A program made the position numbers and the translations under genes. Of a stretch of DNA of 64,000 bases, positions 1,161 through 58,595 are shown piece after piece; within the stretch, counting starts at the first letter, position 1; each line of letters starts with the position of its first letter. The notes under the pieces are model-generated. The model was not told the DNA's origin. It saw only the letters and a program-made list of their open reading frames with translations, and did no database searches. Source of the DNA: Euzebya pacifica. Lineage in GTDB: Bacteria; Actinomycetota; Nitriliruptoria; Euzebyales; Euzebyaceae. Where the stretch lies: contig NZ_CP031166.1 in the NCBI RefSeq assembly GCF_003344865.1, forward strand, positions 124,001 through 188,000, in the 5' to 3' direction.

Positions 1161-2038
1161 CCCGGTGCGGACGGACAACCGGGGCGGGGCGGCCGTGCCG
1201 CAACCCTGCCAGGACCAGCGACTGCGGACGCCACCGCCCGGCACCCATCGCCACTGGTGTGGCGGCAGCGCACACCAGTAGCGTTTGCGATCCCATGGCC
1301 CCACCCCCGACCGCCGCCCTCCCTTCGGCCGCACCAGGAGGGGCCGTGGTGCATCGTGAGGTCGATGCCGGCGACGTCGCCTACCGGGCGGTTGCGGCGT
1401 TCGTGGACGGTGCGGAGGTCGGCCGGTTGACCTGGCAGGAGGCCCCGGACTACAGCCACTACCCCGAGACCGGATGGCCCGACGACGCCGAGGAGACGGC
1501 AACGATCGCGATGGTGAAGGTCGATGAGGATCATCGGCGTCGCGGTGTCGCCACCGGGATGCTGGCGGCGGCACGGGCCGCCGTGGATGAGGACGGCTAC
1601 TCCATTCATCACTCCGGCGATCTGTGGCCCGACGGGGCCGCGTGGGCAGCAGCGGTCGACGGGCAGTCGGCATCGGAGGTCGTGGTCGATCTGGTCGGCC
1701 GGTTCGGCCGTCTCGAACCGGGGCTGGTGGCCCGGTGGGCCGACCCGGTGGGCGCGTCCGCCCAGTGCACCGACGCGGCCGAACGGTTTCGCGACTGGGC
1801 ATGGGACAACGACGTGGACGCGACCATCCGCGTCCACCACGACCCGACCGGTGAGGTGCGAAGGCCGAAGGGGTGGGCCGGCCGGGTCGGCCACGTCACC
1901 GTGTCGGTGGATGGCGCCACGGTCGACTTCACCGCAGCCCAGTTCTGGCCCGACGCGCCCTGCCCGCTTGTCGAACCCGACGACGTCTATGCGGCCCGTT
2001 GGTCCGAGACGGCCGACCGGGACCCGCAGGTCCGATGA
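1157..2038 (+). CDS. GNAT acetyltransferase fused to papain/transglutaminase-like domain
   Basis: The ATG overlaps the upstream stop (ATGA). Residues 4-25 form the same CCCH module (C-x9-C-x7-C-x2-H). At about residues 115-140, a VDEDHRRRGVATGML segment matches the acetyl-CoA-binding R/Q-x-x-G-x-G/A loop of GNAT N-acetyltransferases. The last third has a Cys in SAQC, a His in GHVTV and an Asp in VDFTA, in the order of a papain/transglutaminase catalytic triad; this second domain is inference from pattern. The substrate is unknown. Fusion of an acetyltransferase to a Cys-His-Asp domain beside Nudix and ADP-ribosyltransferase-like genes suggests a nucleotide- or protein-modifying cassette. Confidence 0.6.
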   Translation: MTRCGRTTGAGRPCRNPARTSDCGRHRPAPIATGVAAAHTSSVCDPMAPPPTAALPSAAPGGAVVHREVDAGDVAYRAVAAFVDGAEVGRLTWQEAPDYSHYPETGWPDDAEETATIAMVKVDEDHRRRGVATGMLAAARAAVDEDGYSIHHSGDLWPDGAAWAAAVDGQSASEVVVDLVGRFGRLEPGLVARWADPVGASAQCTDAAERFRDWAWDNDVDATIRVHHDPTGEVRRPKGWAGRVGHVTVSVDGATVDFTAAQFWPDAPCPLVEPDDVYAARWSETADRDPQVR

Positions 2039-2625
2039 CGGCACGGATGTGTGGCCGGATGGCCGCCAACGGGCTGCCTTGCACTCAGATGACCACCAAG
2101 GCCGACTGTGGACGCCACACCGCCCAGGGGCCAAGACGACTCGTTTCGGCCGCAATCCAGGCACCTGCGGTGGTGACCGCCGATCCGTTCGCCGCCCCCG
2201 CGCCGGCGTCGGACCCCGAACCGAAGGGCCGGACCGTCACCGCCCGATGGGTGGGCGACCCCGACGACCCACGGCGGCACTTCACCCGGTTCTTCCACGG
2301 CACCACCGTCGTGCTCGACGAAGGCGAGGAGATCCTGCCGGCGGAGGAAACCGGTGCCAAGCGGGCCCATTGGAACATGGGGCACGGGACGATGGCCTAT
2401 GCCACCGGCACCGAGGACGACGGCTGGCGTTGGGCCGAGCTCGCATGGAACAACACCGACGGCGGCCGGCCCCGCGTCTATGAGGTCGAGCCGGTGGGTG
2501 CGTGGCTCGGTGACGACGAGGACGACGCCGGCAGCTTGGCGGTGATGTCACCACACGGGTGGCGCGTCGTCCGGGCCGTGGGGTTCCCACCGGAGTGGGG
2601 CGGCGAGGACGCGGACTGGGAGTGA
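2035..2625 (+). CDS. Arr-like (rifampin ADP-ribosyltransferase-type) protein with CCCH module
   Basis: The start at 2035 is chosen because ATGA overlaps the previous stop and gives an N-terminal CCCH module (C-x9-C-x8-C-x2-H, residues 6-28). The rest resembles the Arr fold: FFHGTTVVLDEGEEILPA corresponds to the family's HGT-x-L-x-x-GD loop, YEVEPVGAW to its VEP strand, and SPHGWRVV to the C-terminal strand. Arr enzymes transfer ADP-ribose from NAD+ to rifampin; whether this one does is unknown, since the active-site Asp was not placed with confidence. The WLGDDEDDAGS segment (2503-2534) nearly matches a CRISPR spacer 240 bp downstream. Confidence 0.55.
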   Translation: MTARMCGRMAANGLPCTQMTTKADCGRHTAQGPRRLVSAAIQAPAVVTADPFAAPAPASDPEPKGRTVTARWVGDPDDPRRHFTRFFHGTTVVLDEGEEILPAEETGAKRAHWNMGHGTMAYATGTEDDGWRWAELAWNNTDGGRPRVYEVEPVGAWLGDDEDDAGSLAVMSPHGWRVVRAVGFPPEWGGEDADWE

Positions 2626-2682
2626 TGGTCTGATAGGCCACTCACACGGATCGTGACGACTCGCGGCGGCCACCTCATCAGA

Positions 2683-2829
2683 GGATCGCCCCGCCTGCGC
2701 GGGGAAGGGTTCGTGCACGTGCGAGGGCTACGGCCTGTGGGGATCGCCCCCGCCTGCGCGGGGAGAGGCTGCCGGCATCGTCGTCATCGTCGCCGAACCA
2801 GGGGTCACCCCCGCCTGCGCGGGGAGAGG
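2683..2829 (-). CRISPR. Three-repeat orphan CRISPR, type I-E repeat
   Basis: Three copies of a roughly 28-nt repeat lie at 2683-2709 (27 nt, one C missing and a changed 3' end), 2741-2768 and 2802-2829. Spacers are 31 nt (2710-2740) and 33 nt (2769-2801), so the repeat period is 58 then 61. The core CCCCGC-CTGC-GCGGGG forms a 6-bp stem with a 4-nt loop. The reverse complement ends GGGGGCGATCC, as in actinobacterial type I-E repeats, so the crRNA would be read from the minus strand. The degenerate copy is then at the trailer end, with the leader above 2830. No cas gene is in the window. The remaining bases of 2626-2954 show no gene. Confidence 0.8.
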
Positions 2830-2954
2830 TTCGCAGGTTCTGCGGGTCCGCCGGTTGTCGGCTGCGATTGGGCAGGCCGAGGGCCCGGTGGGGTCTTGCG
2901 GACTTCCGCATGCGCGGATCGGCGGGATGGTACTGGAGGGCTGTGACAGCAGCG

Positions 2955-3716
2955 TCAGATGGTGTGGTGTCGGTCGCGTTTGGCGGCGTACATGGCCTGG
3001 TCGGCGCGGCTGAGAGCGTCGTCGAGGGTGTCGTCGATGCATTTGGTTGCAGCGCCGATGGATGAGGTGACGCTGATGTCGCCCACCCGGACCGGCGCCC
3101 CCATCTGCTGGTGGAGTCGATCGAGGAACCCGGAGACCGAGTCGTGCGGCATTTCGGCGAGGACGACGAACTCGTCGCCGCCGATGCGGGCCACGATGTC
3201 GGTGGGGCGCACGGCTCCGCGGAGGTGGCCGGCGAGTTCGCGGAGCACCAAGTCGCCGGTGTTGTGGCCGTGTTGGTCGTTGACCTGCTTGAACCGGTCG
3301 AGGTCGGCGAGGACGATGACGACGGCTGTGTCGTGGCCGGTGGCGTTCCAGGCGTCGGTGAGCGCATCACGATTGGCGGACCCGGTGAGCGGGTCGGTGG
3401 AGGCGAGTTGGCGACACATGAGTTCGTGCTCGTTCCGGTGGATGGCCATGTCCAGGATCTCGGGGAGCCGGTCGATCTGGGACTTGGGCAGGTAGTCGGT
3501 GGCGCCGGCGCGCAGGGACCGCAGGCCCATGCCGGCTTCCTCTTGGCCGGACAGGACGACCAGGGGGAGGTCGGGCAGGTGGGTGGCGATGTCGGCGACG
3601 ACGTCGTGGCCGTCGTTGTCGGGCAGTCCGAGGTCGCAGGTGACGGCGTCGACGGGGCCGTCGAGGAGGACCGACAGCGCGGCGATGCGTGTCGGGACGG
3701 TCCGGACGGCCCACAT
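2955..3716 (-). CDS. Response-regulator diguanylate cyclase (REC-GGDEF), 5' end damaged
   Basis: The C-terminal half is a GGDEF domain: DRFKQVNDQHGH, the GGDEF signature at about residue 180, and a closing ADQAMYAAK. It should make cyclic di-GMP from two GTP. The N-terminal part is a receiver (REC) domain with CDLGLPDNDG carrying the phospho-Asp, VVLSGQ and the late Lys in YLPKS. The first ATG (3716) lies inside the REC domain. The frame stays open upstream to 3878 and reads VEDSPADTNLIASAL, the missing acidic pocket and first helix, but contains no ATG, GTG or TTG. The gene therefore starts abnormally or is decaying. No partner kinase is nearby. Confidence 0.75.
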   Translation of the reverse strand: MWAVRTVPTRIAALSVLLDGPVDAVTCDLGLPDNDGHDVVADIATHLPDLPLVVLSGQEEAGMGLRSLRAGATDYLPKSQIDRLPEILDMAIHRNEHELMCRQLASTDPLTGSANRDALTDAWNATGHDTAVVIVLADLDRFKQVNDQHGHNTGDLVLRELAGHLRGAVRPTDIVARIGGDEFVVLAEMPHDSVSGFLDRLHQQMGAPVRVGDISVTSSIGAATKCIDDTLDDALSRADQAMYAAKRDRHHTI

Positions 3717-36129: not shown

Positions 36130-39100
36130 ATGACCGACCTGCTGCCCGACCTCTACGACCGCGAACGCGCCTGGACAGACCCCGCCAAGCACGGCATCAG
36201 TCCCCGAGCCCAATGGTCCGGGAACGGCAAGAACGCCCTGTGGGTCTGCCACGCCACCGCCAACAAACGGCCCGCCAACGGCCACGTCATCGACGTCTGG
36301 AGGCAACGGCAGGGCAACGGCGCAGCCCCTGTCCTGCTCGTCATCACCCACCACGGTGGCGCGGTCCTGTGCGGCCCGTCCGGGGATTCTCCACCGGTGG
36401 TCGACTTCGATGCCGACGTCGCCCGACGCATCGCCACCACCGCCTTGGAACTGCCCACCCGGCACGCCGCCGCCCGCAAAGTCTTCGGCTACCTCGACAC
36501 CGACGGCGAGGAAGCGACCGGCATCATAAACCGGGGTCTGTTCGCCACTCACCACCTCCGTACCGGTGTGCCCGATCGGCCCGACTGGGACGATGCCCGC
36601 ACCACCGCCGAACCGGCCATGGACAAGGTGGACCGCGAACTCGTCGCCGCCCTCGGCTGGACCATCGAACCCCAAGGCGTCCACGAGGTCCTGCGCGACC
36701 CCGATGACCAGACCGCACGGGCGGTCGCGGTCTTCCTCGCCCCTGACGAATCGGCCGACGTCGCCTCGGTCAAGCGCAACAACACCAGTCCCGTCTCCTG
36801 GGCGATGACCCACGCGGACCGCAATAACATCCCATGGGTCGTCACCGTCCAGGACCGGGCGATCCGCCTGTACTCCACCGCCACCTCCGGCGCCGCCGGA
36901 CAGGGGTCCCGCGAAACCACCTACGCCGAGCTGGACCTCACCATCCTGCCCGGTGAGCTCGCCGGCTACCTCACCCTGCTGTTCTCCGCCGACGCCCTCG
37001 CACCGGGCGGTACCGCCGAACAGATCCGCGAAGCCTCAGCCGACTACGCTGCCGCGCTTGCCGAACGGCTCCGCGAACGCGTCTACGACCAGGTGATCCC
37101 CGCCCTGGCCACCGCCATCGCCGCCAAGGACTCCGGCCCGGAGGGGCCGGACCTCGACGCCGCCTACAGGACCGCCCTCACGGTGCTGTTCCGCCTGCTG
37201 TTCCTAGGCTACGCCGAGTCGAAGCGCCTGCTGCCCTACAAGCGCAACACCGACTACACCGACGCCTCCCTGGCCAAGCAAGCCCGACGGCTCGCCGACC
37301 TCCATAACGAAGGCGCCGATCTCGGGTTCGACAACCCCCTCACCCCCCAGATCGAGGCGCCCACCGACACCGACCAGACCGACCTGTGGGACACCTGCGC
37401 ACGGCTGTTCCGCGTCGTTGACAAGGGCCACACCCGCTACGGGGTCCCCGTGTACAACGGCGGACTGTTCTCCGACGACCCCGACGTCAACCCCGCCGGC
37501 GCCACCATCGCCGACCTGGCGCTGTCCAACACCGAGTTCGGCCCGCCGCTCATGGCCCTGCTCATCGACCACACCCCCGACGGGGGCGCCGGGCCGATCG
37601 ACTTCCGCAGCCTGTCAGTCCGCGAGTTCGGCACGATCTACGAAGGCCTGCTCGAATCCGAACTCGCCCTCGCCGACCAGGACCTCACCCTCGTCAAGCG
37701 AGGCAACGACCAGGTCTATGAACCCGCAGGAGCGATGGATGAGGTGGTCGTTGCCGAGGGCGAGGTGTACCTCCACAACGCCTCCGGCGCCCGCAAGGCC
37801 TCCGGGTCCTACTTCACCAAGCCCTTCGCCGTTGAACACCTCATAGGCACCGCGCTGCTACCAACCCTCGACGAGCACCTCGACCGGATCGCCGACCTCC
37901 TTGGGCAGGGCCAGGAAGCCGATGCAGCCGAGCAGTTGTTCGACTTCCGCGTCGCCGACATCGCGATGGGCTCCGGGCACTTCCTCACCGCCGCCGTTGA
38001 CGAGATTCACGCCCGCATCTCCGCATGGCTCGCCGACCATCCGATCGCCGGTGTCGACATCGAGATCGACAACCTCCGCAGGGCCGCCCGGCAATCGCTG
38101 CCCGAAGGGCAGCACGACCTCGTCGAAGACGCCGCCCTCCTGCGACGCCTCATCGCGCGCCGGTGCGTCTACGGCGTCGACCTCAACCCGATCTCTGTGG
38201 AACTCGCCCGCGTATCGATGTGGATCCACACCTTCGTGCCCGGACTCCCGCTGTCCTTCCTCGACCACAACCTCGCCATTGGCAACAGCCTCACTGGGGT
38301 GGCCAGCCTCGATGAGGCTCTGGACGCGTTGTCCCCACGCGCAGAAGGCGCTGCTGACGGGAAGACGATGCTCACCGCATCTTTGGGTATGGACGTGCTG
38401 CGCAGTCACCTGGCTGCCGCTGAACAACCCCTCAGCCGACTCGGCCAGATCCTGGACACTACGACCTCCGACATCGAGGAGTCCCGGCTCCTGGCGCACG
38501 AAGCCGCAGCGGCCATCGCACCCCTTGAGCGGTTGCTAGACGCCGTGGTGGCCGCGCGTCTTGGGGAGACCCCCATGCCCAACATCCTCGTCGAGAGCGA
38601 CGTGCTGGACGCCGGCAGCGACCAGGCCAGCACCGCCGCCGCCGAGGTGGACGCGTTGCACTTCCCGATCGCTTTCCCCGAGGTGTTCATACGCGACCGG
38701 GCAGGGTTCGACGTGCTGATAGGCAACCCCCCATGGCAGGAGGCAACGATCGAGCGGCACGGGTTCTGGGCGCTACGGTTCCCCGGCCTTCGCAGCCTCG
38801 ACCAAGCCAAGATGGAAGCCGAGATCGACGCCCTTGCCCGATCCCGACCTGACCTCGTGGCGGGCTACGAGCAGGAGGTCTCCGACATGGAAGCCATCCG
38901 GGCGACACTGCACGCCGGACCGTACCCAGGCATGGAGACCGGCGACCCAGACCTCTATAAGGCGTTCGCTTGGCGATTTTGGCACCTGCTGCGGCTCGGC
39001 GGGCGCACCGGAGTCGTGCTGCCCCGTGGGGCCATCGCGATGCTCGGATCCCAGGCCTGGCGGCAGGAACTGCTCGACCACGGGGCGTTGGAGCAGATCG

Positions 39101-40221
39101 TGCAGCTCACCAACAAGGGCGGCTGGGTGTTCGATGGTGTCGAACCCCGGTACACGGTCGCATTCAACGTGCTGCGTCGAAACCCACTGGGGACCGTCAC
39201 CGATCTGCGCCTCTACGGACCCTATGACAACCGGATGGACTACGACACTGGGATCGCCGGGCCAGGAGCGGTCGTCCCGACCGACGAGCTGCGTAAGTGG
39301 ACCCAAGCGGCCTCGGTGCCATTGATGGCCTCCGAGCGTCACGCCGAGGTTTTCCGGGTGCTTCGTCGCCACCGGAAGGTCGCCGAGTTGCCCTTCGCGT
39401 ATATCCGGGAACTCGACGCGACCAACGACAAGAAGCACATGATCCTCAACCCAGGTGCCACAACCGGACTGTGGGAGGTCTGGAAGGGCTCGTCGTTCGA
39501 CATCTGGCAACCGGGCACCGGCGAGGTGTACGCATATGCCGATCCGGCCTACATGACCGAGGTGTTGGAGAAGAAGCGCACCCGTAGTCGCAACATGAAG
39601 ATCATGCCGCCCGCATGGCGCACCGACCCGGACACCCTCCCCGTTCTGAACTACCGCATCGCCTTCCGCGACATCGCCCGCGCCACCGACTCCCGCACCA
39701 TGCGGGCATGCCTCATCCCACCCGAGAAGCCACTGACCAACAAGGCACCGTACCTGCTGCGCAGCGACAAGGCGACGGTGCAGGACGAGGCTTACCTCCT
39801 CGGCGTGCTCTGCACGCGCGTGTTTGACTGGCAGGCCCGATGCACCGTCGAGACGAACGTGAACAAGTACGTCCTTGACGACTTTGCCGTCCCGTGGCCC
39901 ACCAACCCGGACCATCCGGGACGTCGACGGGTAGTTGAGATCGCCACTCGTCTGGCCGCGCAGACACCCGACTACACCGAGTGGGCGAAGCCACTCGGCC
40001 ACGAACCCGAACCAGTCAGCGCAGCCGACACCGCGGAACTGCTGGTGGAACTCGACGCCACCGTCGCCCGTCTCTACGGCCTCACCCGAGACGACCTCAC
40101 CCACCTCTACGCGACCTTCCACCCCACCGGCGGCCATGAAGCGTTCGGTCAAAAGGTCATCGCCCACTTCGACACGCTGGACTTCGGTTCCGCCCACCCC
40201 ACCGACAAGGTCACCGCATGA
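36130..40221 (+). CDS. Eco57I-type adenine-N6 DNA methyltransferase, large
   Basis: The 1363-residue protein carries S-adenosylmethionine motif I as VADIAMGSGHFLTAAVDEI (about residue 609) and the catalytic N-P-P-W motif IV as DVLIGNPPWQEA (about 865). The N-terminal 550 residues and the C-terminal 450 are accessory, the latter with CTRVFDWQARCTVE and FAVPWP as in target-recognition parts of type I/IIG enzymes. The order methyltransferase then helicase recalls type ISP, BREX and class 1 DISARM (DrmMI) enzymes. It should methylate adenine in a specific site and protect the host. The stop overlaps the helicase start (ATGA). Confidence 0.85.
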   Translation: MTDLLPDLYDRERAWTDPAKHGISPRAQWSGNGKNALWVCHATANKRPANGHVIDVWRQRQGNGAAPVLLVITHHGGAVLCGPSGDSPPVVDFDADVARRIATTALELPTRHAAARKVFGYLDTDGEEATGIINRGLFATHHLRTGVPDRPDWDDARTTAEPAMDKVDRELVAALGWTIEPQGVHEVLRDPDDQTARAVAVFLAPDESADVASVKRNNTSPVSWAMTHADRNNIPWVVTVQDRAIRLYSTATSGAAGQGSRETTYAELDLTILPGELAGYLTLLFSADALAPGGTAEQIREASADYAAALAERLRERVYDQVIPALATAIAAKDSGPEGPDLDAAYRTALTVLFRLLFLGYAESKRLLPYKRNTDYTDASLAKQARRLADLHNEGADLGFDNPLTPQIEAPTDTDQTDLWDTCARLFRVVDKGHTRYGVPVYNGGLFSDDPDVNPAGATIADLALSNTEFGPPLMALLIDHTPDGGAGPIDFRSLSVREFGTIYEGLLESELALADQDLTLVKRGNDQVYEPAGAMDEVVVAEGEVYLHNASGARKASGSYFTKPFAVEHLIGTALLPTLDEHLDRIADLLGQGQEADAAEQLFDFRVADIAMGSGHFLTAAVDEIHARISAWLADHPIAGVDIEIDNLRRAARQSLPEGQHDLVEDAALLRRLIARRCVYGVDLNPISVELARVSMWIHTFVPGLPLSFLDHNLAIGNSLTGVASLDEALDALSPRAEGAADGKTMLTASLGMDVLRSHLAAAEQPLSRLGQILDTTTSDIEESRLLAHEAAAAIAPLERLLDAVVAARLGETPMPNILVESDVLDAGSDQASTAAAEVDALHFPIAFPEVFIRDRAGFDVLIGNPPWQEATIERHGFWALRFPGLRSLDQAKMEAEIDALARSRPDLVAGYEQEVSDMEAIRATLHAGPYPGMETGDPDLYKAFAWRFWHLLRLGGRTGVVLPRGAIAMLGSQAWRQELLDHGALEQIVQLTNKGGWVFDGVEPRYTVAFNVLRRNPLGTVTDLRLYGPYDNRMDYDTGIAGPGAVVPTDELRKWTQAASVPLMASERHAEVFRVLRRHRKVAELPFAYIRELDATNDKKHMILNPGATTGLWEVWKGSSFDIWQPGTGEVYAYADPAYMTEVLEKKRTRSRNMKIMPPAWRTDPDTLPVLNYRIAFRDIARATDSRTMRACLIPPEKPLTNKAPYLLRSDKATVQDEAYLLGVLCTRVFDWQARCTVETNVNKYVLDDFAVPWPTNPDHPGRRRVVEIATRLAAQTPDYTEWAKPLGHEPEPVSAADTAELLVELDATVARLYGLTRDDLTHLYATFHPTGGHEAFGQKVIAHFDTLDFGSAHPTDKVTA

Positions 40222-43200
40222 GCCACAAGCCCGAGGTCGTCTCCAACCGTCACGGCACCGTCGCTGACGCCATCGGCGGTTACTGGGACCACTTCCTGAC
40301 GCACCGTCCCGGCGACCTCGCCCTCGCGATCGCGTCGGCTTACTTCAACCCCGGCGGGTTCAAGCTCCTCGCTGACCGGCTCGAGGCCGCCGCCAAGGTC
40401 CGGCTGCTCATCGGGGCCGAGCCAGACGTGGCCGCCGACATGTTCAGGCGCCGGTCCCTGGCCGCGTCGCGTCCAGGGCACACGATGAAGGCCCGACTTG
40501 CCGAAGCACTAAAGGAGCACCTTGCAGAGATCGAGGTTGACCGTGACCTCATCGCCTTCACCCCCGGCAACGACGCGCTCGTCGAACGGCTCATCGCGTG
40601 GCTGCGCAGCGACGCCGTGGAGACTCGACGGCTCACCAGCCAGTTCCTCCACGGCAAGGCCTACATCCTTGAGACCGACAGCGAAGGTGTGGTTGCCGGG
40701 TCGTCCAACTTCACCTACGCCGGGCTGGCCCGCAACGTCGAACTCAATCTCGGCCACTACGAGCCCTACAAGGTCAAGCAGGTCCAAGACTGGTTCGAAG
40801 AGTTGTGGGACGAGGCCGAGGCCTACGACCTTGCGCGCCTCTACGAACGTCGTTTCGAGGACCACCAGCCATGGATCGTGTTCCTCAGGATGCTCTACGA
40901 ACGCTACGGCGACGACCTCGACGTCAGCGACGAGTCCTTCGGCATCCCGATGCTGCCCTTCCAGGCCGAAGGGGTCATGCGGGCCCGGAGGTTCCTTGCC
41001 CGCTACAACGGTGTCGTGATCGCCGACGGCGTCGGGCTCGGCAAGACCTTCACGGCCGGCCAGCTCATATGGGAAGCCGTGCACGACCGCCGCCAACGGG
41101 TCCTGCTCATCGCCCCCGCAGCACTGCGTGACGGTCCTTGGGCCAAGTTCCTCGTAGAGCACGACCTCGAAGCCGTCACCTCGATCTCCTATGAGCAACT
41201 CTGCAACGACATTCGTCTGGGTGGCACCAAGGAGGTCTTGAAGCACGACCCCGACGACTACGCCATGGTCGTCATCGACGAGGCCCACGCCTACCGCAAC
41301 ACCGGCACCGAACGAGCAGGGGTGCTCCGCGAACTGCTGAAGGGCTCGCCACAGAAGGACCTCGTGCTGCTGACCGCCACCCCGGTCAACAACAGCCTGA
41401 TCGACCTCTACAACCTGCTCGCCTACTTCATCCGCAACGACGGAGAGTTCATGCCCGTCGGCATCCCGTCGCTGCGCAAGCACTTCGCCGCAGCCCAGGC
41501 TGCAGACCCCGAGGACCTCTCCCCAGACCTTCTCTTCGACGTCCTCGACGCCGTTGCCGTCCGGCGCACCCGACGGTTCGTCAAGAAGCACTACGCCGGC
41601 ATGGAACTGCCTGGCCTGGGACCCATCCGGTTCCCCGAGCCGAAGGTCACCCGCGTCGACTACGACCTCGACGCCGTCATCCCAGGCTTCTTCAACGACT
41701 TCGCCCACGCCCTCGGGATGGACCCGGACGACCCCGACACGCCCATCCCCACCCCCGACCAGTTCGACTACCAATCCGGCCAGCTCACTCTCGCCCGCTA
41801 CGCCCCCTCTGCCTTCCTGGCCGACCCCGACGCCGATCCGGAACCCTATGAGATGCAGGCCGCAGGCCTGCTGCGCTCCGGCCTGCTCAAGCGATTCGAG
41901 TCCTCCTCTGCGGCGTTCGCCAAGACCTGCCGCAAGATGGCCGCCTCACACGACCTGTTCCTCGACGCACTCGACGACGGATGGGTGCTGACCGGTGACG
42001 CCCTTGCCGAGTACGCAAGGACCGACACCGACTACGACCCGTCTGACTACGACGGCGGCGGCACCCGCGGTGACGCTGCCGACTACGACCTCGACGAGCT
42101 CCGTGCGGCCGTCGAGGCCGACAGGAACCTGCTGGAGGAGTTCGCCGGCCGGGCCGAGGCGATCGGTGTTGCCGACGACCCCAAGCTCGACGCCCTGATC
42201 GAGGCGCTCGCCGCGATCGCCGAGCAGGCCGACCATGACGGACTCACCCCACGCGAGCAGCAAGACAACCGCAAGGTGCTGCTGTTCAGCTACTACGGCG
42301 ACACCGTCGACTGGATCATGGAACGCCTCGCCGATGCAGTCGTCACCGACCCGAGGCTTGCGGCCTACACCGGTCGGGTCACATCGGTCACCGGCGACGA
42401 CGGCGACAAGAAAGAGGTCATGTACGGGTTCGCGCCACGGACCGCCGGGGCGCCGGACGGGTGGACCGACAACTACGACATCCTCGTTGCCACCGACGTT
42501 CTGGCGGAGGGCGTCAACCTCCAGCAGGCACGCCACATCATCAACTACGACCTGCCGTGGAACCCGATGCGGCTTGTTCAACGGCACGGACGCATCGACC
42601 GTATCGGCTCTCCGCACCCCAAGGTGTGGATGCGTTGCTTCTTCCCCTCCGATGTCCTCGACGACCTCCTCGGTCTCGAAGCACGCATCCAACGAAAAAT
42701 CGCCCAGGCCGCCGCCTCGATCGGTGTGGAGGACGAGATCATCCCCGACTCCGCGGTCGCCGAGGTGGTGCTCGCCCACACCAAGGAACAGATCCAGGCG
42801 ATCCACGACGAGGACGCCGCCCTGCTCGACGACGACCATGCCCCCGGTGCCCTGTCGGGCGAGGAGTTCCGCAAGATCCTCGCCGACGCCATGGACAACG
42901 CGACCACACGCGCCAAGGTCCTCGGGTTGCCGTGGGTCGCTGGATCCGGGTTCCGCAGCAGTGGCAACCCCGGGTTCGTGTTCTGCGCCCGAGTGGGCGA
43001 CCACCCCGAAGCGGTGTTCCGGTGGGTCCCCATCGACACCGACGGCAACACCCTCGTGGAGGCGGACGGCACCACGATCCTTTCGGACCAGACGCTGCAG
43101 GCCATCGCGCGCGCCCAGTGCGAACCAGCCACCGACTTCGACCTGCCCGACGCGGCACGGGACAAGGCGTACACGGCCTGGGAAGCGGCACGTGACGACA

Positions 43201-43610
43201 TCCTGGCGAAGTGGGCCGACCTGTCGGACCCGACCAACGTTGTGGTGCCGGTCCCGAAGACGATGCGACGGGCCAAGGAGCTGCTCATCAACCACCCCCC
43301 GGCCGGCGTCACCCAGGACAAGCTCGACTGGTACGACGAAGCCCTCTCAGCCCCCTACGACCACCGCACCCAGAGGATCCTGCGGCAAGCAATCATCGAC
43401 CATGACAACCCAGCTGACCAGGCCGTCGAGATCGTCAAGGTCATCCACGACCTGGGACTCGAACCCCAACCGGAGGTCCAACCCCTCCCGGAGATCGAAG
43501 CCGACGACATCTACCTGGTGTGCTGGATGGCCGTGTTGCCCGAATCCAACAGCGCTTCAGACGTGCTGTTGGAGCAGCCTGAGGGCCTTCCTGCGCAGAT
43601 CGACTCATGA
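40218..43610 (+). CDS. PLD-nuclease/SNF2-type helicase fusion
   Basis: The ATGA overlap with the methyltransferase fixes the start. Residues 1-190 are a phospholipase-D-like domain with one HKD motif: HGKAYILETD and, six residues on, GSSN (about 145-165), so a dimer would be needed for cutting. A helicase follows: Walker A GVGLGKT (about 272), DEAH box VVIDEAHAYRN (about 353), motif III TATPVNN, and motifs V-VI ATDVLAEGVNLQQA and QRHGRIDRIG (about 755-800). SNF2-like enzymes translocate along double-stranded DNA. Likely role: ATP-driven scanning and cutting of unmethylated invading DNA. It shares features with DISARM DrmD and other PLD-helicases. Confidence 0.85.
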   Translation: MSHKPEVVSNRHGTVADAIGGYWDHFLTHRPGDLALAIASAYFNPGGFKLLADRLEAAAKVRLLIGAEPDVAADMFRRRSLAASRPGHTMKARLAEALKEHLAEIEVDRDLIAFTPGNDALVERLIAWLRSDAVETRRLTSQFLHGKAYILETDSEGVVAGSSNFTYAGLARNVELNLGHYEPYKVKQVQDWFEELWDEAEAYDLARLYERRFEDHQPWIVFLRMLYERYGDDLDVSDESFGIPMLPFQAEGVMRARRFLARYNGVVIADGVGLGKTFTAGQLIWEAVHDRRQRVLLIAPAALRDGPWAKFLVEHDLEAVTSISYEQLCNDIRLGGTKEVLKHDPDDYAMVVIDEAHAYRNTGTERAGVLRELLKGSPQKDLVLLTATPVNNSLIDLYNLLAYFIRNDGEFMPVGIPSLRKHFAAAQAADPEDLSPDLLFDVLDAVAVRRTRRFVKKHYAGMELPGLGPIRFPEPKVTRVDYDLDAVIPGFFNDFAHALGMDPDDPDTPIPTPDQFDYQSGQLTLARYAPSAFLADPDADPEPYEMQAAGLLRSGLLKRFESSSAAFAKTCRKMAASHDLFLDALDDGWVLTGDALAEYARTDTDYDPSDYDGGGTRGDAADYDLDELRAAVEADRNLLEEFAGRAEAIGVADDPKLDALIEALAAIAEQADHDGLTPREQQDNRKVLLFSYYGDTVDWIMERLADAVVTDPRLAAYTGRVTSVTGDDGDKKEVMYGFAPRTAGAPDGWTDNYDILVATDVLAEGVNLQQARHIINYDLPWNPMRLVQRHGRIDRIGSPHPKVWMRCFFPSDVLDDLLGLEARIQRKIAQAAASIGVEDEIIPDSAVAEVVLAHTKEQIQAIHDEDAALLDDDHAPGALSGEEFRKILADAMDNATTRAKVLGLPWVAGSGFRSSGNPGFVFCARVGDHPEAVFRWVPIDTDGNTLVEADGTTILSDQTLQAIARAQCEPATDFDLPDAARDKAYTAWEAARDDILAKWADLSDPTNVVVPVPKTMRRAKELLINHPPAGVTQDKLDWYDEALSAPYDHRTQRILRQAIIDHDNPADQAVEIVKVIHDLGLEPQPEVQPLPEIEADDIYLVCWMAVLPESNSASDVLLEQPEGLPAQIDS

Positions 43611-45761: not shown

Positions 45762-47894
45762 TCAGTCGGTGGCCGGGGGGAGGCTGGTGGATTCCAGGTA
45801 GGCGTCTCGGAGGTCGTCGAGGCGGACGTAGGTTCCGTTGCGTTCGACCGCCCAGGTCTCCCAGCCGTTGACGTTGCCGTTGGCCAGCGTCGCACCGGCC
45901 CCCGACGGGGTGGCGTAGCGGACCCCATCGAGGATGATTGCACCGTCGGTGCTGACGGTTCCGCTGCCCGGTGCCGTTGACCGCAGGTGGGTGATCGTTT
46001 CGTCAGCGAACAGCAGTTCCGCTGCGATGAGGTCGGCAAGGCTGATGTGGCTGCGGTCAACGGAGGTTGCATGCGGGGTGCTGTGACCGTCCCCGACGAC
46101 GATGGGGGCGTCTTCGGGTTCGACGTCTGGGGCAACGGGACTGCGGTCGACGAGGGTCTGGTAGCCACGATGGATGACGTCGGCCATCAGCTTCCGGCGT
46201 GTCTCGCAGAAGGTGTCGTAGTCATCGGTCCACCATCCGTCGTAGAGGGCATGGTCGGCCATCTGTGCGGCCAGGGTCGCGTGGGGGAGGGTGTCGGCGT
46301 GCAGGGGCCAGTAGTGGGCGGGGGCGTCATCGGAGATGTCGCCGTTCTCCACCCAGTCAACGAGGGCGGCGTTGGCAGGACGGTTGGCGAGCGCCGACCA
46401 CTGGGCGCCGGACAGGCCGGTCTGGTGGCGCAGGTAGGCCTTGGGGAACAGGTGATGGCGTTCGATGCCCTTGGCTGCGGTTGAGGGGCCCAGCCGATGG
46501 GAGACCCGTTCGTCGTTGGGGGCGAACAGCACTGGCGCGTCGATGACCACTTGGGCGGCCTCGTAGGCCATGAGGGCCCGGTTGGACCACGACCGCGAAT
46601 CGAGGGCTTCGGGCAGCGACGTGGTGAAGAAGTCGGGGGTCATGATCGCGGCGAGCCGACGTTCGGTTGCGCTGATCAGGTCGACGTCGTCGCGGGTCAT
46701 GGCGTACAGGTCCGCGGCGAGGGTCGATTCGCCCGACCCGGAGTAGCGGCCCGTGACCGATGCGGCGTAGAACCATCGGGCCATGAGGTTCTGCAGATGG
46801 CGTCGGTCGATGCCGCGTTGGCGGCCGTGGGTCCAGATCGCATAGGTCGCAAGGACCGCAAAGTCGCTGTTGACCTGACGGGAGGACCGGTATCCGGCGG
46901 TGTCCAGGACGCGGAGGAACTCGTGCCAGTGGTGGGTGGACAGGACCTCCTCCTGGGCAACTGACCAGGCGGCGAACCGTTCGGCCCGAGTCTGGGTGTC
47001 GTCGTCACCGCGAAGGAACGCGTACACGTCGGAGAGGGCGGCACGACGAAACGCCACCGCGGCGACGACCCTGACCAGCTGGGTGGCGTCGGGGAGGATG
47101 TGGGGGTTGTGCGGGGTCCTGGCGGCCTTGTACGGGCTGTCGGTGTGGGCGGCACGAACCCATTCCTCCAACGCGATCCGGTCCTTCTGGGCATGCACTG
47201 ACATGAGGGTCAGGACGAAGTCGGACTGCCCCAGCGACTTGCCGCCGTTGTTGGTGCGGACAAACACCTCTGCGACGTCCTCCACGTCGGCGTGTTCCTT
47301 CAGCTCAACGACTGCAAGCTTGAACTTGGGAAGGTCAGTCAAGCGGGACAGGTGGGTCTGGACGGTCGCGAGTTCGGTGTCGGTCAGGTCCCTGCCGGTG
47401 GCCTTGAGCCCCTCGACGTAGCCGTTGACCACGGTGAAGGCGTTCTCCGCAAAGGCCTTGGTGATGTCGGGAATCCATTCGGCGTTCTTGGCGATGGCGC
47501 TGTTGGAGGTCTCGAACCGGCCGGTGAGCGGGTTGAACGCGATGCGGATCCGCTGCGACTTGTAGTCCTTGTTGAGGACCTCCGCGCCGTGCAGCACCGC
47601 ATAGATCGACGTGACCCGCTGCTGCCCATCGATCAGCAGCAACGACGGGTCGGCCTCCTTGGTGTCGGTTCCGATGGTCCGGACCGACTCCGACCTCGTG
47701 CGCCACGTCATGATGTTGCCGACCGGGTAGCCCCGGAACAGGCTGTCGAAGAGATCGCGGACATCGACGTTCTTCCACACGAACGGCCGCTGCAGCTCGG
47801 GGAGGGCCAGTTCGCCAGTGGCGACCTGCTCTGCGAGTCGGGACAGCGAAGCGCTCGTGTCGACGAACTTGTCTTCCAGAGCGACAGCGACCAC
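45762..47894 (-). CDS. GmrSD-like DUF262/HNH-type restriction protein
   Basis: A GTG start at 47894. Residues 30-70 (LPELQRPFVWKNVDVRDL, FRGYPVGNIMTW) and LLIDGQQRVTSIYAVLHG near 85-105 are the DUF262 (GmrS) NTPase/nuclease core. About residue 475, GIERHHLFPKAYL is the H-x3-P nuclease motif of DUF1524 (GmrD). Fused in 710 residues, this matches single-chain GmrSD type IV enzymes, which restrict glucosylated or otherwise modified phage DNA. The C-terminal 170 residues include a ISLADLIAAELLFADETI part followed by a strand-rich RAMA-like tail (GAIILDGVRYATPSGAGATL, GWETWAV), a domain typical of modified-DNA readers. It is convergent with 44521. Confidence 0.85.
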   Translation of the reverse strand: MVAVALEDKFVDTSASLSRLAEQVATGELALPELQRPFVWKNVDVRDLFDSLFRGYPVGNIMTWRTRSESVRTIGTDTKEADPSLLLIDGQQRVTSIYAVLHGAEVLNKDYKSQRIRIAFNPLTGRFETSNSAIAKNAEWIPDITKAFAENAFTVVNGYVEGLKATGRDLTDTELATVQTHLSRLTDLPKFKLAVVELKEHADVEDVAEVFVRTNNGGKSLGQSDFVLTLMSVHAQKDRIALEEWVRAAHTDSPYKAARTPHNPHILPDATQLVRVVAAVAFRRAALSDVYAFLRGDDDTQTRAERFAAWSVAQEEVLSTHHWHEFLRVLDTAGYRSSRQVNSDFAVLATYAIWTHGRQRGIDRRHLQNLMARWFYAASVTGRYSGSGESTLAADLYAMTRDDVDLISATERRLAAIMTPDFFTTSLPEALDSRSWSNRALMAYEAAQVVIDAPVLFAPNDERVSHRLGPSTAAKGIERHHLFPKAYLRHQTGLSGAQWSALANRPANAALVDWVENGDISDDAPAHYWPLHADTLPHATLAAQMADHALYDGWWTDDYDTFCETRRKLMADVIHRGYQTLVDRSPVAPDVEPEDAPIVVGDGHSTPHATSVDRSHISLADLIAAELLFADETITHLRSTAPGSGTVSTDGAIILDGVRYATPSGAGATLANGNVNGWETWAVERNGTYVRLDDLRDAYLESTSLPPATD

Positions 47895-57552: not shown

Positions 57553-57689
57553 CCGACCCGGTCGTCGGTGGGGGATGGCTCTCGCCGTCGTGCCCGGTGG
57601 CTTGGCCGGGTCCGGTTCGACCGTCCGCCGCCTGCCTGCCCCACCACCACGATGTCGTGGTGTTCCCCGGGCGGCCCGGCCGGAATGCC

Positions 57690-58595
57690 ATGCCCATGAC
57701 GTCGCACCCCTGTCCTCGCAGCACCCAGGCCGGCCAGCCGTGCCGCAACACCATCACCGCTGGTCGGGCCGACTGCGGACGCCATGTCGCCGACACCACC
57801 TGCTGGACGTGGGGTGGCGGGACAGGCGGCCTTGCCACCGCGATGCAGGACCCGATGGCCACACCGGCCAGCCCTGCGGTGATCGCGGGTCCAGTTGCCC
57901 CTACCGGACCGCGGCTTGATGGCGCCAACGGGCCCGGCTCCGCAGCCCTGCGCGGGGCCCGCCGCCAGCAGACCGCAGAGATCCGCCGGATGGCAGTCCC
58001 CGACGACGTCACCGTTGGCCCTGCCCGCTACATGCCCGCCCGGGACGCCGTCGTTGCCTGGGTCGCCGGCGACCGAGATCTGCTGGACCGGATCGGCGAC
58101 GGACGGGCCAGCGGCCCGGTCCCGGTGACCGTCGGCGGGATCGTCGGCAGGGTCGAGGACGGCCGTCTCGTGTGGCGCAACGGACGCACCATCGAGGAAG
58201 GCGACATCATCGAGTCCTACCGGACGTTCCCGACCGCCCAGGCTGCCCTGGACGACCTGACCGGTACCGCCACACCGGCCATCACCGGCCGGTTCGGCCA
58301 CTACGGGCCGCACCACCAGACCGACTACGACGACGCCATGGCGTTGCTGCGTGAGCACAAGGGCCATGTCACGAGCCACCGGGACCCCTACGGCTCGGCG
58401 GATGCGACGGTGGTCGACGCCGATCTCTGGCGGGATGGGGCCGATCTCCCGGTCATCTCGATGAGCATCGCCTACGACGACACCGGCGCCGAGGTTCGGG
58501 CGTGGTGGGCCAACGACACCTACGCGTCGGCGTCTGCGCTCGCCGAACTCCTCGCCCACCGCAACGCAACCCGGCAGGCCAGCACAGCCGCCTGA
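57690..58595 (+). CDS. CCCH-module protein, function unknown
   Basis: The ATG at 57690 (or 57696) gives residues 8-32 as C-x9-C-x10-C-x2-H, the same module as at 141, 1157 and 2035. Most of the remaining 270 residues are alternating strands and helices (RYMPARDAVVAWVAGDRDLL, HHQTDYDDAMALLREHKGHV). No catalytic motif is placed with confidence. It follows the AAA gene by about 140 bases (57553-57689, no gene seen). Confidence 0.55.
   Translation: MPMTSHPCPRSTQAGQPCRNTITAGRADCGRHVADTTCWTWGGGTGGLATAMQDPMATPASPAVIAGPVAPTGPRLDGANGPGSAALRGARRQQTAEIRRMAVPDDVTVGPARYMPARDAVVAWVAGDRDLLDRIGDGRASGPVPVTVGGIVGRVEDGRLVWRNGRTIEEGDIIESYRTFPTAQAALDDLTGTATPAITGRFGHYGPHHQTDYDDAMALLREHKGHVTSHRDPYGSADATVVDADLWRDGADLPVISMSIAYDDTGAEVRAWWANDTYASASALAELLAHRNATRQASTAA

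Follow-up and report, generated by a model that had tools for sequence, protein, structure and literature searches.

The three CRISPR repeats near the start of the window (the whole stretch of 64,000 nucleotides that was analysed, C2:124001-188000) raise the question of which Cas proteins would serve them. The initial annotation described an orphan type I-E mini-array on a mobile element, which could borrow the Cascade of its host to attack rivals. The locus was compared with the cas genes and arrays of the complete genome (6.37 Mb in two contigs, C1 and C2, the latter of 571,580 bp), with the gene that adjoins it and with plasmid, phage and viral collections. Coordinates are given in Table 1.

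The mini-array and the cas operon of its replicon

All three repeats share an identical 17-nt core, CCCCGCCTGCGCGGGGA (starts at 2689, 2748 and 2809), and the core stem folds in each of them; these are genuine type I-E repeats. Core-to-core spacing was 59 and then 61, instead of the constant 61-bp period described initially. The crRNA sense is the minus strand, placing R3 next to the leader and R1 on the trailer side. The earlier reading of R1 as a trailer repeat that lacks one base and has an altered end thus holds: one C of its C5 run is missing, and it departs from the main-array repeat by an indel and several changes, while R2 and R3 each differ from that repeat at two positions. Repeats of approximately 29 nt with the I-E stem (degraded in R1) and unique spacers of approximately 32 nt, as expected of an array of the plasmid's I-E system, are both present; spacers A and B each occurred at a single place in the genome when up to three mismatches were allowed.

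Table 1. Features of the mini-array, its surroundings and the type I-E cas operon (window positions, unless C2 is named)
Feature	Position	Strand	Remarks
Arr-like (rifampin ADP-ribosyltransferase family) gene, N-terminal Cys/His tag	2035..2625	+	contains the stretch matched by spacer A
Protospacer-like stretch	2503..2534	+	27 of 32 bases shared with spacer A; spacer positions 4, 9, 15, 18 and 24 differ
Repeat R1, trailer side	2681..2709	-	one C lost, altered ends, core stem retained
Spacer B, 30 nt	2710..2739	-	single place in the genome at ≤3 mismatches
Repeat R2	2740..2768	-	27/29 to main-array repeat
Spacer A, 32 nt	2769..2800	-	27/32 to 2503-2534 in the adjoining Arr-like gene
Repeat R3, leader-proximal	2801..2829	-	27/29 to main-array repeat; would supply the 5′ handle of crRNA A (GTGACCCC vs GTGATCCC)
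Possible decayed leader end	2830..2855	-	ACCCGCAG in register with the cas3-side leader end; 14/26 identical, longest in-register run 8
Response-regulator/GGDEF gene	2955..3716	-	upstream of the array, co-directional
Cas3	C2, before window		TIGR01587, 3.9e-50
Cse1	C2, before window		TIGR02547, 2.9e-16, below curated cut-off
Cse2	C2, before window		8.9e-10
Cas7	C2, before window		7e-61
Cas5	C2, before window		1.6e-35
Cas6	C2, before window		4.2e-12
Cas1e	C2, before window		2.5e-62; just under its own model's curated cut-off, above that of the general Cas1 model
Cas2	C2, ends 121882		PF09707, 1.3e-20

A complete type I-E operon (cas3, cse1, cse2, cas7, cas5, cas6, cas1 and cas2) was found on C2 just before the window. 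The earlier statement that no cas gene lies within the 64 kb agrees with the searches, in which the Cas7e and Cas1 matches fall outside the window, but the operon ends with cas2 approximately 2.1 kb beyond its edge. The orphan status of the array is an artefact of the window edge, as the replicon has the full set of eight I-E cas genes as well as an array of 14 copies of the same repeat. In a whole-genome search, the sole matches for Cas7e and for Cas1 were on C2, C1 giving none for either. With a full I-E system on the plasmid there is therefore no need to borrow Cascade from the host. Type I-E Cas7 occurs commonly on plasmids (189 of 72,556 plasmid records), and a search of genome contigs for Cas7e relatives gave 34 pattern matches, none of them confirmed. 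Two ATPases, one ParA-like and one of the AAA_10 family, are also encoded on C2; because the latter is read as VirB4-like, C2 is taken to be a conjugative-type megaplasmid, in line with the mobile-type replicon proposed at the outset.

The search for cas genes and same-repeat arrays elsewhere in the genome, suggested in the initial annotation, located both on C2. The main array (C2:121901-122722) follows cas2 in the orientation of the operon and consists of 14 repeats and 13 spacers of 32 nt; the core is exact in all 14 repeats, 11 of which equal the consensus and three of which differ by one base. Three worn repeats lie ahead of cas3 (the cas3-side array, C2:112998-113147) and two worn repeats form a third small array at C2:346411-346500. 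The mini-array lies approximately 4 kb from the main array, in opposite orientation and with more worn repeats. Genome-wide, the exact core occurred 20 times, each time on C2 and within one of these four array sites, which rules out a dispersed palindromic repeat; of two further cores with one mismatch, one lies in the cas3-side array and one on C1.

A run of 16 is common to the leaders of the cas3-side and main arrays, between which the cas operon lies. Leader likeness of the mini-array is short and modest, and best to the cas3-side array: identity of 14/26 over the 26 nt upstream of R3 was reached by 0.36% of 19,600 random C2 stretches, and an in-register run of 8 including ACCCGCAG by 0.08% (both uncorrected, with six pairs compared). 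No sigma-70-type promoter was found at 2550-3050, although for a genome of actinobacterial type this test is a weak one. Transcription of the mini-array by read-through from the GGDEF gene is possible. Among 61 genomes searched for the mini-array only its own matched, and Rfam gave no match in the window.

Partial match of spacer A to the adjoining gene

The gene that adjoins the array resembles Arr weakly (PF12120, 1.5e-5; 25.5 bits, with the cut-off at 25), and the nearest solved structure for it is a rifampin ADP-ribosyltransferase (E 0.03). Spacer A and the stretch that it matches in this gene (hereafter arr) are 234 bp apart. Four of the five differences fall at third codon positions and three, as read from the codons, are silent. 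The bases at the PAM position of the arr stretch (2500-2502) are GCG. In E. coli the consensus PAMs are AAG and ATG (PMC6568314); that of the system on C2 may differ.

Chance was ruled out as the source of this match by codon-preserving shuffles of the arr gene, none of which (0 of 20,000) came within six mismatches of spacer A. Likewise, 15.4 Mb of block-shuffled C2 open reading frames contained no site at up to six mismatches, three at seven and 25 at eight. On C2 itself, arr matched with five mismatches and the next-best site with seven. A merged pattern of spacer A and arr, with up to three further mismatches allowed, recovered only those two places in the genome, and its reversed control none. 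Spacer A is rich in GAC/GAT, and 170 of 72,556 plasmid records (7.3 Gb) match at least 80% of its length at a single place; with partial matches so abundant in plasmids, the significance of the arr match is therefore read from the local control alone. Since the match is far beyond chance and its differences fall mostly at third codon positions, spacer A derives from this arr gene or a close homologue.

When the 18 spacers of the four arrays were compared with C2 at up to six mismatches, self-matches were obtained only for spacer A and one cas3-side spacer, and for none of the 13 main-array spacers. As a yardstick, a second match on C2 at this level was found for 1 of 60 random C2 32-mers and 1 of 18 reversed spacers. 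The cas3-side spacer (C2:113087-113117) agrees at 27/31 positions with a tRNA-Met gene of the plasmid itself (C2:348242-348272), which belongs to the tRNA gene cluster described below; this is a second partial self-match in a worn array. The spacers of the cas3-side array and of the array at 346 kb (n = 3) were searched on C2, one of the three also in its own genome.

Searches of plasmid, phage and viral collections with spacers A and B gave no target above the low-complexity background, and spacer B in particular matched nothing convincing in plasmids, phages or viral contigs. For two of the 13 main-array spacers, the search was extended beyond C2 to exact matches in viral contigs, with no target.

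Self-targeting spacers as described in PMC6990116 are similar in that the spacer is related to the genome that carries it, and mismatches together with a changed PAM position would avoid autoimmunity; spacer A differs from them in that its match is partial (27/32) rather than exact and its target lies so close to the spacer.

Origin of the mini-array

The mini-array is probably a decayed satellite (off-site) array of the plasmid's own complete type I-E system, because it shares the core and the replicon with the main array, lies approximately 4 kb from it, has more worn repeats and holds a spacer of arr lineage. It is one of three small arrays and, we think, mostly a relic. While the array was active, Cas1-Cas2 would have captured spacer A either next door, from arr itself, or from a close homologue that a related element carried, after which gene and spacer would have diverged. 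Adaptation is known to sample the surroundings of CRISPR loci. If the array is transcribed, for instance by read-through from the GGDEF gene, the plasmid's Cas6e should still be able to cut its repeats, and the plasmid's Cascade to take up the products; a live array would yield minus-strand crRNAs of approximately 61 nt with the handles GUGACCCC and GCGAUCCC. The two seed mismatches and the GCG at the PAM position should now spare the plasmid's own arr gene, and spacer B may still guide immunity.

As to the source of spacer A, capture from the gene next door is plausible since spacer hotspots at the CRISPR locus itself are reported for E. coli (PMC12539621, citing earlier work). Alternatively, a rival plasmid or phage with an arr homologue supplied spacer A, in which case it would be ordinary anti-rival memory and its likeness to arr a by-product of shared genes. 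This alternative competes solely with the self-capture part of the satellite-array explanation; it is possible, and we lean somewhat against it. Differences concentrated at third codon positions are what homologous genes would show, plasmid-borne CRISPRs prefer plasmid targets according to PMC9071438, and the tRNA-Met matched by the cas3-side spacer is a gene type that related elements could share. However, among plasmids, phages, viral contigs, genome contigs and 65 further genomes of the class, no homologue encoding the spacer's version was found. No homologue of the arr gene at all was found in 72,556 plasmids, 50,697 phages and the viral contigs, and 3 of the 65 other class genomes gave weak matches only (E 3.6e-5 to 9.5e-4). 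Moreover, the chance that a spacer from a random gene of a related 571-kb plasmid would fall within 1 kb of the array is estimated at <1%. The searches having found no gene that encodes the spacer's version, the two routes of capture are inseparable; self-capture is slightly preferred because arr adjoins the array.

On either source, the match between spacer A and arr would preserve, in legible form, the uptake of DNA by a CRISPR system from its own surroundings or from the corresponding region of a sister element. The pair would show drift between gene and spacer without loss of the gene, a fossil of targeting of self or near-self. The satellite-array reading fits plasmid-borne type I-E CRISPR-Cas as surveyed in PMC9071438, where a complete I-E locus on a plasmid is likewise accompanied by extra small arrays. 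The same survey describes plasmid-borne orphan arrays as shorter, and as possible remnants; the mini-array differs from these in not being an orphan and in having one spacer that resembles an adjoining gene.

A domesticated guide was also considered, in which arr, next to the array, is repressed by Cascade under the guidance of crRNA A, in a circuit like CrePA/CreTA or CRISPRi. The resemblance to CreTA, CrePA and CreR (PMC8501985, PMC9458426, PMC12737573) lies in the small number of worn repeats, their position close to a type I cas locus and the partial complementarity to a neighbour. The non-chance match to the directly adjoining gene, the intact Cas6-type stem of the worn repeats and the ADP-ribosyltransferase family of the neighbour would all suit such a role. 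We nevertheless regard it as highly unlikely. Repression by Cascade in CreTA requires seed positions 1-5 and 7-11 of CreA to match the promoter (PMC8501985), whereas positions 4 and 9 mismatch here, so that neither cleavage nor strong repression is expected. The matched site lies deep within the coding region with GCG at the PAM position, and the full seed of spacer A or B occurs at no other site in C2:106001-132000. A CreTA/CrePA-type module was rejected as unlikely, there being no seed match to any nearby promoter including that of the adjacent gene. For CreR the guide should recognise the cas promoter; the region just upstream of cas3 contained no seed match, not even a partial one, for spacers A and B. 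The repeats themselves are also far less degenerate than the two of haloarchaeal CreTA/CrePA, which are only 11/30 to 16/30 identical to each other. That crRNA A holds down the ADP-ribosyltransferase-like gene via the plasmid's Cascade, with mismatched binding sparing the DNA, is thus very improbable; if true, it would extend the Cascade-guarded modules known from type I-B to a protein effector.

A mobile mini-array that hijacks host Cascade against rivals is rejected: a small array does lie on a plasmid-like replicon, and mini-arrays on mobile elements that depend on host Cas are described for viruses (PMC8616872), but C2 has a cas operon of its own and C1 no Cas7e or Cas1 match. With this false lead of a Cas-less mini-array removed, its place is taken by a plasmid with a full I-E system, one intact array and three worn ones. 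The literature search covered phenomena rather than the organism and found no paper on this locus.

Additional features of the replicon

The same gene tail, ending in DPMG-stop, abuts the trailer ends of the cas3-side and main arrays (C2:112940-113010 and C2:122723-122790), hinting at a duplication around the CRISPR locus. A region at C2:345478-359104 holds 32 predicted tRNA genes with many anticodons, and the two-repeat worn array lies inside it.

Defence-type genes in the window were a type IIG restriction-methyltransferase (36130-40218), an SNF2/DrmD-like helicase (40218-43607) and an HEC-05-like protein (45765-47894). The phage-terminase family PF04466 had no match in the genome. An FtsK-like and a DnaB-like protein (C2:536358-541721 and C2:545638-548988) each match several PHROG families that are unrelated to one another. 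In the FtsK-like protein these matches fall on a single common stretch; both proteins may contain inteins.

The Cys/His tag of the Arr-like gene, approximately C-x8-G-x-C-x(8-11)-C-x(2-4)-H, occurs on C2 as a fusion to many enzymes that are otherwise unrelated (NUDIX, GNAT-like, Arr-like, ADP-ribosylglycohydrolase and polyA-polymerase-like), usually at the N-terminus and sometimes at the C-terminus; examples in the window are 141-1160, 1157-2038, 2035-2625 and 57597-58592. No Pfam model covered the tag in the eight tagged proteins scanned. In 342 chosen open reading frames, which do not include the Arr-like gene, the motif was matched 32 times in 30 frames, and 26 of the 32 matches were followed by xDP[FM] within 16-24 residues. 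The tag looks like a shared sorting or loading signal.
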